Positions 25,901 to 29,663 of a DNA stretch of 41,388 nucleotides are shown here, piece after piece; position 1 is the stretch's first letter, and the number at the start of each line of letters is the position of its first letter. Source of the stretch: Flavobacteriales bacterium. Its GTDB lineage: Bacteria > Bacteroidota > Bacteroidia > Flavobacteriales_D > Crocinitomicaceae. The notes below the pieces were generated by a model. That model worked only from the letters and a program-made list of their open reading frames with translations. It was not told where the DNA came from and searched no databases. The DNA is taken from NCBI GenBank assembly GCA_947491305.1, contig CANLIL010000021.1:1-41388 (forward strand), written 5' to 3'. The translations under genes and the position numbers were made by a program.

Positions 25901-28388
25901 TTCAACCATTCAACGACAAGAAAACACTGAAAATATTGGTTCTAATGCACTTTCTTCGAACGTTTCCCAATCAGATTCAACAGCTCGTTTTTCAGGTGAG
26001 AATACGCGTTCGACGAAAGTTTCCATAGATGAATTTCAACGATCTTTGAACCAATTGCAAGCAAATTTTGAACAGCAAACAGCGCGTATTCAAACAACTA
26101 CGCCTGAAGAAAAAATTAGCTTATTGCAAGAGCAAACAATCGCGTGGCGCTCTCAATTGGAATCGAAAAAAGAAACACTAATAAAAGCTTCACTTTCATC
26201 AGTTGAAAAAGCTACATTCAATCAGTTAATTGATTCCACAATTGCACTAATTGACCAACAACTATCGCAACGTTCGGATGAACACAAAGTTCAACTTTCT
26301 AATTTATCGGAGGATCAATTGCAACAAAATCAGACGAATTACTTAAGAAAAATTGGTGTATTGAGTCCGGTTATGGCAATTCTTTCAGGAAAAAGCACCT
26401 TGCCAAAAGAAGCGCAATTGAACGAGTTGCAACAAGCTAGATCACTTCTTCAAGCTGCGCACGAACAAGAAGTAGTGTTGCAACAAAAAAAACCTGCTGA
26501 TATTCAAGGAATTTCCAACCAATTATACAATGAACAATTGCTCAACTCCATTGAAGAAACCCAACAAAATCTCGAGAATGAAATAAAATTGTCAGTAATT
26601 GAAGCCAAAGAGCAAGAACAAATTGCTCAACTTGCACAAAGAGCAGAACAAGAAAGACAAGAAAATGAAGCTGTAGAAATTGCACAAAAGCTTCAAAATG
26701 CAGAAAAGAACAGCGATTTATCACCTTCTATGTCATCATTGGAAGCAGAAAGTAATTTTGTATTTAAATTACGTTCATCGTTTAAATCAAAAGAAATTCT
26801 AAGCTTCAATGCACAACAAGATCCAATCTTATTGCAACTGAAATTAGCAGAATGGAAGCGTTACAACAACTTTTTAACCAATCAATTGAAAGAATTAGAA
26901 GTTAGAAATACTAGCAAATCCGATGTTGAATTGGAGAAAAAATGGATTGAAGCTGAAATCGATCAAGTTCAACTAAACTTAGCAGAATTAACACAATTGG
27001 TTGCGACTAAAATCAAAACTAACTCCATTACTCCAAAACAAACATTGCCTGAAAATAGTGTGTTACAATTCCCTTCATCAGACACAGTAGGTCGTTCACT
27101 TGCATTTATTCCAATGGACGTTTCTATGCCAAATGGATTGATGTACCGCGTTCAAATTGGCGCATTTACAAAACCGATGTTAGTGGGTAACCATCCTTCG
27201 ATTGAACCTATTTCTGGGGAACGCATGCGCAATGGTTGGTTCCGTTATTTGAGTGGATATTTTGGATCCCTCGACCAAGCGATTACAGCTCAATCGTACA
27301 TTCGTCAAAATGGTTTTGCAGACGCTTATTTAGTTGCGTATTGTGACGGGCAAAAAATATCTTTACAACAAGCGAGTGAATACATTTACAACGGAATGTG
27401 TAAACCGTATAAAGGAACGACAGAAGTTCTTGCGAATCGAAGCGTATCAATTATAGAAAAAGCAACCACTGAAACAGCTACTATTCCTAATCCAATTTCC
27501 AATGTTGTTTCGGATATACTCGTTTATTATAAAGGAGTCAATGCAGTTGCAGCATCGCCATTAGAAGTAATTACAGGTTTATTATTTTCGGTTCAAATCG
27601 GTGCGTTTTCTGTACCTGCAACGGCAGAAATCACGAAGGATTTAAGTCCACTTTACACCTTTTTATTGCCTAATAAACACATTCGATATTCAGTAGGGAA
27701 ATTTGATCGTTTGTCGGATGCCTTAGAACAAAAAAAGGTAGTTATTGAAAAAGGGTTTAAGGATGCATTTATTGTGATTTATTACAATGGTGAACGCATT
27801 ACATTGCAGGCTGCTCAGCAATTAATTCAATCGAAAGGAAATGCTGTTTTTGCGAATTCGGTTGCGGTTCAATCTAAAAATATTCCTGAAGTAACGCCTG
27901 AAATTCCAGCAGAAATCGTTCCTAAATCGGTGAAAATTGAATCTGCACCAACAGAAAAAATTGTTCACTATCAATTTGTAAGTAAGAAGTCATTTTCAGC
28001 ATTCCCGAGTGATGTATTAAACCGTTACAACAGTAAAGGAAACTATTATTACGATCCTTCAGATGGAAAAGTGAAGTCAGTTATTGTTGCTACAAAAGAT
28101 GCATTGCCTCGTATTTTTAATTTTAAGAATGATGTTGATACGCTTGAAATTATTTCTGAAAAAAATGAAGCATCAACTGAGATAAACGTTAACTTTGCAG
28201 ACGAAGCAATAGCTGGTGATGTTGCAGATTGGTTGCAACGATTGCCATACAGTATCCACTTCTCGAACGTTGAGAAGGGGCTTTTACTTAAAATTGTTGG
28301 TATTAAACAAGAAGAATTAGAAACCATCGAAAAACAATTAAATCGTTTCGAATTGAATTTTATAATACAAAAAAATGACATTGATTAA
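22935..28388 (+). CDS. Giant exported TPR / PD40 / coiled-coil / double-SPOR protein (1817 aa), TTG start
   Basis: An exported scaffold-like protein, probably peptidoglycan-associated. Reading from a TTG at 22935 it has a signal peptide MRLKAFFIALFFLIPFFGVGQ. No ATG/GTG lies in frame between the plsY stop (22887) and this TTG, and the next internal Met is about 140 residues in, so TTG is the likely start. Layout: TPR repeats (about 22-140); WD40-like PD40 beta-propeller blades (about 200-310, e.g. GLDIYKRSKAKSGGWSEPI, FDENYPFFNEKTRELFYSS); a small beta-sandwich, possibly carboxypeptidase-regulatory-like (about 340-400); a Q/E/K-rich coiled coil (about 430-1370); SPOR domain 1 (about 1400-1475, YRVQIGAFTKPM ... 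FGSLDQAITAQSYIRQNGF); SPOR domain 2 (about 1550-1630, FSVQIGAFSVPA ...); and a non-repetitive tail. SPOR domains bind denuded glycan strands. TPR-PD40 resembles T9SS PorE, but here SPOR replaces the OmpA-like domain. It overlaps clpS by 14 bp. Confidence 0.82.
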   Translation: MRLKAFFIALFFLIPFFGVGQTAKELKSDANKLFEQEQFVDATPLFSRLLAIEPKNHEYNFKYGTCLLFQSNDKQKALNYLQYAVKSSEIQPEAYFYLGRAFHLNYLFKEAIKSYTKFITLAPNSDLKNAAERYTNMCQNGKNKLTQFTDFEVIDKQEIPLEEFYRSYKLTQLGGELIVVAEFQTKLDKKKNHLPLVYFGSGSTEIYYASYGEDATNGLDIYKRSKAKSGGWSEPIKLSSTINTSFDENYPFFNEKTRELFYSSNSYESIGGFDIFKAKQFNEGQFSKPTAIDFAISSSDDDLLYISDSLDQLAFFASTRNCEAGKINLYTIKNERFIQNDRLVKGDFVSSLENGITVSVIQQKTGKTIGNFSSNENKGYYFLFPEPGAYTFACKLAAQSVVIPLTVEIPTSSNRLPLAQQIVHKRIGGEDRLSLINSDTITAQNSPELLAELIRQKATLDRSTSPMSGEKVSTENQQELAAKVLQQEAELHKKTALKAEALSAVNTEVTLTENAFDYSIYLKNKRLVELNQNLKALIVAYNNEKVQDKKQTILQDANQLVNEFKKVEEQKEALLILKQQSLTPVKQQLSAVDRLQIAPILDKLSTAVAEKKPANLSPTERISLENFQARKLQTPAENFIAVQDSLAIKQKKLKELLLSNAKEISALQNTITQLDQQFEQVTDIKKSTIEEQKNSALSTLKTYQEEQAIVTKKTTVLQEKINEIQTKNSALSAVLATEIPVASSVKELLAASQQQVASSNSTTLQDFIALTVQKNPLPAVSTSLVQKFENEQKSHQHTIEKIQQSKANETVKQEMFATENKQFIAHLDQIETQLDAQTLPTLSTKEQEILGQLAQRIQQAKEATAISIADNSKDSDVTKQEKSPLIKANQQSNVLIEEQLKSLHNKSTNKLTAIESNTALEAAEKLQLIEQENQSMQVQEDSIYLLIEQQKRAEPSLDLSKERMELTQLKKDREKNVQSAIQRIEQAANSTIQRQENTENIGSNALSSNVSQSDSTARFSGENTRSTKVSIDEFQRSLNQLQANFEQQTARIQTTTPEEKISLLQEQTIAWRSQLESKKETLIKASLSSVEKATFNQLIDSTIALIDQQLSQRSDEHKVQLSNLSEDQLQQNQTNYLRKIGVLSPVMAILSGKSTLPKEAQLNELQQARSLLQAAHEQEVVLQQKKPADIQGISNQLYNEQLLNSIEETQQNLENEIKLSVIEAKEQEQIAQLAQRAEQERQENEAVEIAQKLQNAEKNSDLSPSMSSLEAESNFVFKLRSSFKSKEILSFNAQQDPILLQLKLAEWKRYNNFLTNQLKELEVRNTSKSDVELEKKWIEAEIDQVQLNLAELTQLVATKIKTNSITPKQTLPENSVLQFPSSDTVGRSLAFIPMDVSMPNGLMYRVQIGAFTKPMLVGNHPSIEPISGERMRNGWFRYLSGYFGSLDQAITAQSYIRQNGFADAYLVAYCDGQKISLQQASEYIYNGMCKPYKGTTEVLANRSVSIIEKATTETATIPNPISNVVSDILVYYKGVNAVAASPLEVITGLLFSVQIGAFSVPATAEITKDLSPLYTFLLPNKHIRYSVGKFDRLSDALEQKKVVIEKGFKDAFIVIYYNGERITLQAAQQLIQSKGNAVFANSVAVQSKNIPEVTPEIPAEIVPKSVKIESAPTEKIVHYQFVSKKSFSAFPSDVLNRYNSKGNYYYDPSDGKVKSVIVATKDALPRIFNFKNDVDTLEIISEKNEASTEINVNFADEAIAGDVADWLQRLPYSIHFSNVEKGLLLKIVGIKQEELETIEKQLNRFELNFIIQKNDID

Positions 28389-28668
28389 AAATTCACAAAC
28401 AGAAATTGCCGTTGATGCAGATCTTTTATTGAAGGAATTATTAACGGAGGAAAAGTCATTGGTTCTTTACAACGATGATTACAATACCTTTGATCACGTA
28501 ATTGAATCATTGGTAAAAGTGTGTCGTCACACCGCGATCCAAGCAGAGCAATGTGCCCTCATTATTCACAACAATGGCAAGTGCATGGTAAAAAGTGGAA
28601 GTTTTGACGATTTAGAACCCATGTGTACGGCCTTGTTAGACAGAGGACTGAGCGCATCCATTGAATAA
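28375..28668 (+). CDS. clpS: ATP-dependent Clp protease adaptor ClpS
   Basis: Delivers N-degron substrates to ClpAP in the cytoplasm and modulates ClpA specificity. The family core is LVLYNDDYNTFDHVIESLVKVCRHT (split: the NDDYNTFDHVI block at about residues 33-43), followed by AIQAEQCALIIHNNGKCMVKSG and a C-terminal helix DDLEPMCTALLDRGLSASIE. The 97 residues are a normal length. The start at 28375 overlaps the giant SPOR gene by 14 bases in another frame. It closes the long plus-strand run before the tRNA promoter. Confidence 0.95.
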   Translation: MTLIKNSQTEIAVDADLLLKELLTEEKSLVLYNDDYNTFDHVIESLVKVCRHTAIQAEQCALIIHNNGKCMVKSGSFDDLEPMCTALLDRGLSASIE

Positions 28669-28680
28669 TATTGTTTTTTC

Positions 28681-28712
28681 TTTGCAAAAAAAGAAAAAAC
28701 TACATATATTTG
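28681..28712 (+). promoter_or_regulatory. Bacteroidota-type promoter for tRNA-Arg
   Basis: TTTG at 28681-28684 and TATATTTG at 28705-28712 with 20 bases between them: a complete -33/-7 pair in the expected geometry, 31 bases before the tRNA's first base. Confidence 0.8.
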
Positions 28713-28743
28713 CACACGCAATTCAGCAATGAATTGATAAAAT

Positions 28744-28817
28744 GGCTTCGTAGCTCAACTGAATAGAGCACTACATTACGGCTGTAGAGGTTTAAGGTTT
28801 GAATCCTTACGAGGTCA
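28744..28817 (+). tRNA. tRNA-Arg (anticodon ACG)
   Basis: A 74-base cloverleaf. The acceptor stem pairs GGCTTCG (28744-28750) with CGAGGTC (28810-28816), using two G-U pairs; the discriminator is A28817. The D-stem is GCTC/GAGC, the anticodon stem CTACA/TGTAG with loop TTACGGC, giving ACG (A34 presumably edited to inosine for CGU/CGC/CGA), and the T-stem TAAGG/CCTTA with loop TTTGAAT. CCA is not encoded (CTC follows). The D-loop AACTGAATA has G18 followed by A instead of the usual G19, while the T-loop has U at position 56 instead of C, so the tertiary 19-56 pair would be A-U, apparently compensatory. Confidence 0.93.
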
Positions 28818-28824
28818 CTCTGAT

Positions 28825-28858
28825 AAAAAGCACTAGTCCAACGGACCAGTGCTTTTTT
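28825..28858 (+). terminator. Intrinsic terminator of tRNA-Arg
   Basis: GCACT + GTCC (28830-28839) pair with GGAC + AGTGC (28843-28852) around AAC, with one A-C mismatch, flanked by AAAAA and followed by TTTTTT (28853-28858). A strong hairpin plus T-tract, 8 bases after the tRNA. Confidence 0.92.
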
Positions 28859-29185
28859 GTTTTAAGCGCATCTGTCAACTTTGTTGACAAGTAAGCGAAA
28901 AACAAAAATGCGCTGCAGAGCGCAGCTCAGTGCTTTATATCCACTGCACGTTTCCGGATAGGATCATGAAATAATCCTTTAAATAGGTTTGTTTTAAGCG
29001 CATCTGTCAACTTTGTTGACAAGTAAGCGAAAAACAAAAATGCGCTGCAGAGCTCAGCTCAGTGCTTTATATCCACTGCACGTTTCCGGTCAGGATCATG
29101 AAATAATCCTTGAAATATGGTTTGTTTTAGCGCATCTCTCAACTTTGTTGACAAGAAAGCGAAAAACAAAAATGCACTGCAGAGC
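28856..29185. repeat. 132-bp tandem repeat with conserved hairpins, 2.5 units
   Basis: Unit A is about 28856-28987, unit B 28988-29120 and the truncated unit C 29121-29185. Each starts TTTGTTTTA(A)GCGC. A and B are nearly identical; C is diverged and breaks off after CTGCAGAGC. Each full unit holds an outer stem AGCGCAT/ATGCGCT (28865-28871 with 28908-28914) enclosing GTCAAC-TTT-GTTGAC (28874-28888), then CAGTG/CACTG (28928-28946) and AGGAT/ATCCT (28960-28978). Unit A overlaps the tRNA terminator's T-tract. An open frame at 29013-29240 exists only because 132 is a multiple of three. Confidence 0.9.
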
Positions 29186-29663
29186 CTATATACGCCTATT
29201 TTTACAAGTGAATTATAATTTTCAAGCATCTAAAAAGTAATTTAAAACATATTATTTCCCTATTCAATTTCTCATCTGAACAACATTGAAAAAATGAATT
29301 CTTTTAGTTGATTTAATGGAATGTAAAAATTACAATTCACGTGTTACAAATATTATTTTTTCTTGTATTGCACTTACATAAATTAAATTATTAGATTTCA
29401 ATTTTCCTTACAACATTGCAATATTGTAAAGATTTTTTATTTTAAATATTTTCTCTCCCCACACGATTCACCAGCAATCCTAAATTATCAAACAGTCCAC
29501 TAGCAAAATAACAATTAGGAATACTTCTAAGTCTTAATAAACCATCTAATATGCAATTGATTCATTTTACTTGCTAATGTAACTTACGTCACGTTCAATC
29601 AATTTTGTTCGTATAATTTTATACCGCCAATTTAACGATATAAAATAGTAAAATCAGCTAAAA
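29186..29663. other. Long intergenic stretch without a convincing gene
   Basis: About 480 bp, very AT-rich, with frequent stops in all frames. It contains the third 26-bp palindrome at 29406-29431. A short open stretch on the minus strand between about 29450 and 29560 reads like protein (it includes PNCYFASGLFDNLGLLVN) but lacks a start and could be a gene remnant. No clear promoter for the gene at 29664 could be assigned. Confidence 0.5.
29406..29431. repeat. 26-bp near-palindrome, copy 3 (inverted)
   Basis: Halves CCTTACAACATTG and CAATATTGTAAAG: the reverse complement of copy 1 with a single base change at the second position. It lies in the gene-free stretch before the methyltransferase gene. 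Confidence 0.85.

Follow-up and report, generated by a model that had tools for sequence, protein, structure and literature searches.

Cassettes attached at the 3' ends of tRNA and tmRNA genes in Flavobacteriales: a repeat family with a covarying fold, predicted terminators and a tRNA-end mimic

Among described systems, the RtT repeats of E. coli (Rfam RF00391), which form tandem units behind a tRNA gene, come closest to the locus considered here. The E. coli tyrT operon holds four RF00391 matches and an annotated small RNA, RttR, and each of its units closes with a hairpin in which the 3' strand repeats the T-arm/acceptor end of the tRNA (GGGGAAGGAT .. ATCCTTCCCC then CCACCACCA). RtT is also reported from other tRNA operons, and is described as released from tRNA transcripts and linked to the stringent response (PMC4986893). 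A second source links RtT to the bidirectional terminators of BIMEs, palindromic repeats able to stop transcription both ways (PMC2965389). Integrase attachment sites and the islands found at them share a tRNA or tmRNA 3' end as their location, a displaced tRNA 3' end and stacking with other sequence. BIME/REP elements consist of dispersed REP palindromes with a RAYT transposase, and integron attC arrays are built of units that each end in a foldable site, with attC core sites and an integron integrase.

Here we analyse a tandem array behind a tRNA-Arg(acg) gene of a Flavobacteriales bacterium (Crocinitomicaceae; contig CANLIL010000021.1 of assembly GCA_947491305.1); the whole stretch of 41,388 nucleotides that was analysed is termed the window. 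The array is one locus of a family of cassettes of about 130-180 bp that join tRNA and tmRNA genes at base 73. Like RtT, it comprises tandem units behind a tRNA gene, and units ending in a copied tRNA 3' end occur in the family; unlike RtT, it has another body sequence and a strong terminator-like hairpin placed first, and the family's final alignment (A3, described below) spans ten tRNA anticodons plus tmRNA. Rfam returned tRNA and nothing else from the whole window at gathering score, RF00391 included, and a relaxed search of 28700-29300 at E<=10 gave, besides tRNA, nine matches, all far below gathering scores and none of them RtT. Since the window holds no RtT match, the cassettes are not members of the RtT family; they are of a comparable kind and, by analogy, may work like RtT arrays. 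With BIME/REP they share palindromic repeats, here predicted to stop transcription both ways, but they are fixed to tRNA and tmRNA 3' ends and carry a mimic of the tRNA end. As at integrase sites, the family is inserted at the tRNA or tmRNA 3' end with a displaced 3' end behind it (decayed in the window); in contrast to islands, the cassettes have a covarying folded body and an altered T-loop and are too short for a recombinase gene, none of which was seen within the units. Units with a foldable end also recall attC arrays, from which the cassettes differ in being fixed to tRNA ends. The literature covered, in which subscription papers were mostly not included, contained, judged by titles and the openings of abstracts, no account of such repeats in this bacterial group.

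In the window, tRNA-Arg(acg) occupies 28744-28818 on the plus strand (ARAGORN and Rfam RF00005), with base 73 at A28817. Behind it, on the same strand as are all features below unless stated, lies the predicted intrinsic terminator of the tRNA, H1 (28825-28858; fold -15.4 kcal/mol), a hairpin that directly abuts a run of six T at 28853-28858; a simple terminator scan omitted H1, whose stem contains a mismatch. TRF places the repeat at 28856-29185 with a period of 132, 2.5 copies and 95% matches, in agreement with the preliminary description, which had reported a 132-bp tandem repeat of two and a half units, the first beginning in the T-tract and the last diverged and truncated. Unit A (28857-28988, 132 bp) starts within that T-tract, unit B (28989-29121, 133 bp) is without the first terminator arm, and unit C (29122-29185) is cut off near 29185; A and B are identical at 128/133 positions (96.2%), and C matches each of them at 62/70 (88.6%). 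The units are also less AT-rich than their flanks, as had been noted (40% GC, vs 34% upstream at 28100-28743 and 25% downstream at 29190-29660). The outer stem closing the cassette body, P1, pairs 28822-28834 with 28929-28941 (GATAAAAAGCACT / AGTGCTTTATATC) and so begins upstream of the interval first described; the long stem P3 pairs 28847-28863 with 28899-28915. Both come from single-sequence folds and from covariation (for P1, over 87 units), while the hairpin at the tip of P3, TGTCAAC/GTTGACA (28873-28879 with 28883-28889), comes from the fold and lies outside the pairs counted for covariation. A terminator scan found a terminator-like hairpin with a T-run on the opposite strand at 28909-28926. 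Unit A further holds the class-A block ATCCACTGCACGT (28939-28951) and, identified by sequence comparison, the T-arm mimic AGGATCATGAAATAATCCT (28960-28978), behind which the acceptor copy has decayed to 8/16 bases; the corresponding features of unit B lie at 29071-29083 and 29092-29110, the latter with a 17-mer match at 29093-29109. With A and B 96.2% identical vs 89.8% identity to the sister genome G016, the array is best read from its sequence as a recent local tandem expansion of a tRNA-tail cassette.

The preliminary description had proposed searching its own and related genomes for the unit and building a covariance model, and both were done. By blastn, the window locus alone stood above noise in its own genome; G016, of the same genus, carries about 1.5 units at the same tRNA (91% over 181 query bases), and weaker pieces were found in 22 further genomes of the 199 searched. 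In 12 of 20 inspected weaker loci a tRNA or tmRNA end, judged by eye, lay just upstream, and several of these loci were tandem. Founder units were gathered with the pattern TCCAYTGCA.G, and 12 of them, aligned over the stretch that begins with tRNA base 73 and closes with the T-arm mimic, formed model R1, whose structure was set by hand from single-sequence folds; the founders had mostly already been observed beside tRNAs, and the model contains one tRNA base and no more. R1 matched 91 of the 199 related genomes, the own genome included, at E<=0.01, a threshold at which E-values are rough and weak matches may be chance. The own genome gave seven matches, among which those listed comprise tRNA-Arg(acg) twice, tRNA-Val(tac) twice, tRNA-Leu(gag) and tRNA-Arg(tct), the last belonging to a second sequence class; blastn was too weak for these other sites, and detecting them needed the covariance model. 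From the best R1 matches 80 stretches were hand-picked as strong matches, and the final alignment A3 holds 87 matches (E<6e-8) from 85 sources; with loci hand-picked and founders selected by motif, mostly beside tRNAs, the fractions given below do not describe a random sample.

In a phylum-wide draw R1 matched 5 of 395 genomes at E<=1e-5, three of them members of the order (the own genome among them) and two not, the latter with partial matches starting within about 15 nt behind a tRNA. Across 299 genomes from the order, the 17-mer GGATCATGAAATAATCC, the core of the T-arm mimic, is found at 25 places in 15 genomes, and it occurs in 3 of the 395 from the phylum draw; the reversed 17-mer gave none among the matches listed. 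At 14 of the 25 places a tRNA (Arg, Ser, Pro or Cys) lies <=330 nt upstream, nine of them at 115-160 nt, with quite different bodies, and at the other 11, some at contig ends, ARAGORN found no tRNA within 900 nt, as was also the case for the one place outside the order. The mimic motif was also seen 140-307 nt behind tRNA-Cys (L223, L224, L233), again with quite different bodies. Some short-read contigs (e.g. L103, L113, L119, L121, L155) end inside or just behind a cassette, which suggests further unresolved copies.

The address of the cassettes is nearly fixed. Among the 87 units of A3, 60 start at a tRNA 3' end, 54 of those at the identical offset, and 7 start at a tmRNA 3' end (recognised by sequence, one confirmed by Rfam); the remainder are 7 further units of such arrays, 3 at contig edges and 10 others. 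The tRNAs comprise ten anticodons (Lys, Leu, four Arg, two Val and two Ser), and a Pro tRNA is present in the wider set A2. Several of the 10 others sit behind non-tRNA sequence that, by eye, ends in a tRNA-like 3' end, and these ends we read as displaced tRNA ends. The class-A block is common to seven tRNA anticodons (Lys-ttt, Leu-gag, Val-tac, Arg-acg, Arg-tcg, Arg-tct and Arg-cct) and tmRNA. A second class, class B, with the same layout and a block like TTCTATGCTTG..CAAAACG, was observed at tRNA-Arg(acg) (L175, L176, L177, L178), and a class-B-like unit stands at tRNA-Arg(tct) of the own genome (L091 1065-1223).

The case for structure rests on comparison, since one unit alone does not fold clearly better than its shuffles (z -1.1 as RNA, -1.9 as DNA). 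In A3, 93.1% of cells are paired vs 72.9% when shuffled, and 30 of 32 pairs show two-sided change, with 500 two-sided cells vs 124 in shuffled and 37-68 in slid controls; A3 was fitted to its own structure model, which favours covariation, and the slid controls fall far below. The covariation is very strong across these sequences, and the supported long-range stems are P1 and P3, so that the earlier view of a repeated, structured, non-coding element is strongly supported, with copies at many tRNA and tmRNA genes. Four stems had been proposed for each unit, and two of them stand: AGGAT/ATCCT is the T-arm mimic, and GTCAAC/GTTGAC is the hairpin at the tip of P3. Of the two that do not, AGCGCAT/ATGCGCT is broken in G016 (AGCATAT .. 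ACGCACT), and CAGTG/CACTG has its 3' side in the conserved block ATCCAYTGCACGT while its 5' side varies with the outer stem. RNAalifold on a MAFFT alignment returned H1 and a three-pair stem and nothing else, and the three-pair stem was not adopted. In P3, mismatches of the G-T type exceed those of the A-C type by 68 to 5 over 58 clusters and by 28 to 3 over 57 representatives under strand-neutral pairing; in P1 there is no clear bias (20 to 11 over clusters, p 0.15; 4 to 4 strand-neutral). The excess in P3 points to folding of the tRNA-sense strand, although T-tract constraint and base make-up can explain part of it, and covariation in nested palindromes can also stem from palindrome repair at the DNA level.

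A full unit runs from a predicted strong terminator through the palindromic body and, in class A, the block ATCCAYTGCACGT to a T-arm/acceptor mimic with a changed loop. Terminators were counted in the 85 units of at least 125 nt: right behind the tRNA, the terminator-like plus-strand hairpin H1 is present in 84/85 (median -17.4 kcal/mol; 7/85 shuffled), and a weaker minus-strand site in 63/85 (median -7.7; 10/85 shuffled). The class-A block ATCCACTGCACGT at <=1 mismatch occurs in 62/85 units and in 0/85 shuffled ones, its near-invariance among the 12 founders being partly due to their selection by the block pattern. The stem of the T-arm mimic tends to track the T-stem of its own tRNA, while the loop differs. 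Additionally, base pairing between the 5' side of the mimic and its own tRNA's acceptor strand extends over a mean run of 3.80 vs 3.18 +/- 0.12 (0/2000 shuffles), over 59 distinct units of the 67 bearing the block, among which relatives do not count as independent. A copy of the 16 terminal tRNA bases stands behind the unit at >=14/16 in 25 of 61 testable units, vs a mean of 4.0 with swapped tRNA ends, and the remaining 36 fall below 14/16. At tRNA-Val of the own genome, an identical terminator follows the tRNA and again the last unit.

How the cassettes have evolved was approached by comparing bodies alone, for 81 of the 129 distinct A2 matches (those with a tRNA or tmRNA label and >=125 nt). 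The best match in another genome lies at the same tRNA for 41 of the 81, vs a mean of 9.2 (highest 21) with shuffled labels, and for 43 of 52 units same-tRNA relatives in other genomes surpass same-genome units at other tRNAs. The cassettes thus seem to have been passed down, for the most part, together with the tRNA they follow. The highest body identity among 44 same-genome pairs at different tRNAs is 0.802, so no recent jump between different tRNAs was detected. Occupancy nonetheless varies among congeners: of 26 genomes from the genus, 21 gave a tRNA-Arg(acg) locus; class A follows the tRNA in 3 and the second class in 5, one of them truncated where its contig stops, CTCTAGCGGAGA follows in 8, and other sequence without a recognised cassette in 5. 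The idea that tRNA 3' ends serve as landing sites fits these data, the cassettes lying exactly there; the related suggestion of an imported or mobile origin is supported only in part, given the low identity between same-genome copies at different tRNAs. CTCTAGCGGAGA..TCTCCG with similar sequence beyond it was observed at 8 of the 21 tRNA-Arg(acg) loci (L171, L172, L179, L182, L183, L187, L188, L189), and CTCTAGCGGAGA also follows a displaced unit in G154; it may represent the left boundary of an integrated island with a wide distribution.

Two GIY-YIG genes of the own genome deserve mention beside the question of movement. An 89-aa ORF (Pfam PF01541, E 5e-17; G000:C14, L089 176-445) is flanked on one side by tRNA-Val and the terminator of that gene and on the other by a second, tRNA-Val-like copy whose T-loop is expanded, within which copy the ORF terminates in frame, and a homologue occupies the same position in G016 (L092); a second GIY-YIG-like ORF lies elsewhere (G000:C5, L008 383-667, minus strand; phmmer E 7e-10). 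As general movers such genes were rejected, phmmer across the loci collected by then having returned no more than the tRNA-Val locus of the own genome and G016 and one other own-genome place.

From the position, architecture, covariation, predicted terminators, copied tRNA ends and variable occupancy of these sequences we infer a route by recombination, transcription and a function, and our main reading, to which we give a probability of roughly 0.6, is that of a tRNA-tail cassette, which recombination has put in place and local amplification has multiplied, and which serves the tRNA gene as a substitute terminator and 3' tail. Such a cassette would begin at base 73 of a tRNA or tmRNA gene, supply through H1 a strong intrinsic terminator, continue into a palindromic body foldable on the tRNA-sense strand (P1, P3), often include a terminator-like site against opposing transcription, and end in the T-arm/acceptor mimic with altered T-loop, behind which many units faithfully repeat the last ~16 tRNA bases. 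It would have arisen by recombination at the tRNA 3' end that displaced the old end and terminator; it would later have been mostly inherited with the tRNA, its copy number shifting by unequal recombination between direct repeats. In this proposal it would terminate transcription of the tRNA gene, give the transcript its 3' tail and shield the gene from transcription coming the other way. In the window itself, the decayed acceptor copy (8/16) and the missing first terminator arm of unit B count against this reading, and in the family the 36 of 61 units below 14/16 do so too; moreover, should H1 end almost all transcription, RNA of the folded body would be rare.

An RtT-like non-coding RNA is the first alternative: the array would be transcribed with the tRNA, cut by tRNA-processing enzymes at the minihelix mimics and yield a stable trans-acting RNA. 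In the E. coli tyrT repeats the parts follow a similar order and an RNA is indeed produced (RttR annotated, four RF00391 matches; PMC4986893), and the P3 mismatch excess is what folding of the tRNA-sense strand would leave; the same excess may partly reflect T-tract constraint and base make-up, however, folded single-stranded DNA would give it too, and P1 lacks a clear asymmetry. A strong terminator-like hairpin also stands ahead of the body in 84/85 units; we regard this alternative as unlikely.

Quite unlikely, in our estimate, is a non-autonomous mobile element, in which integrases that target tRNA genes would move the mini-cassette in trans, with crossover in the T-loop/T-stem and the cassette possibly recombining as folded single-stranded DNA. 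It would account for the exact 3' location with a copied tRNA end behind the unit, for one block shared by seven anticodons and tmRNA, for occupancy that varies among congeners and for the units seen by eye behind tRNA-like ends after non-tRNA sequence. The ceiling of 0.802 on body identity between different tRNAs of one genome speaks against it, as do the searches of phage and plasmid records, without a match at E<=1, and of viral contigs, without a match to one exact 25-mer.

Decayed tandem tRNA duplications, in which the mimic would be the remnant of a second tRNA copy and the body an old spacer, find some echo in the first mimic at tRNA-Val, which by eye still resembles much of tRNA-Val with an expanded T-loop, and in several tRNA-Leu mimics that retain their own tRNA's 5' acceptor GCCCAC or GCGCA; yet had the duplications been independent, different tRNAs, tmRNA and families would not have the block ATCCAYTGCACGT and the start CTCTGATAAAAGC in common, which makes this reading very improbable. 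A one-off local duplication without function, which the preliminary description had named as the outcome if no copies and no covariation were found, has practically no standing: the 2.5-fold repetition in the window does look recent and local, but copies in many genomes and the strong covariation both contradict it.

A tentative and more far-reaching reading, possible though we would not favour it, is that of a gene-less mobile tRNA/tmRNA-tail element whose acceptor/T-arm minihelix follows its own tRNA, which would re-target between tRNAs via 3'-end recombination and would repay each host tRNA with a new terminator and a processed 3' RNA. Such elements have so far been found almost only in one order of one phylum; were this reading true, and E. 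coli RtT a distant or separately arisen example, they would represent a general kind of element. A single puzzling repeat has in any event become a family with a fixed address at base 73, a fold that covariation supports and, in E. coli tyrT, a sister case. It opens to testing both the way in which a tRNA gene comes by a new terminator once its 3' end has received an insertion and the nature of tRNA-tail repeats, be they RNAs, terminators or mobile DNA without genes.
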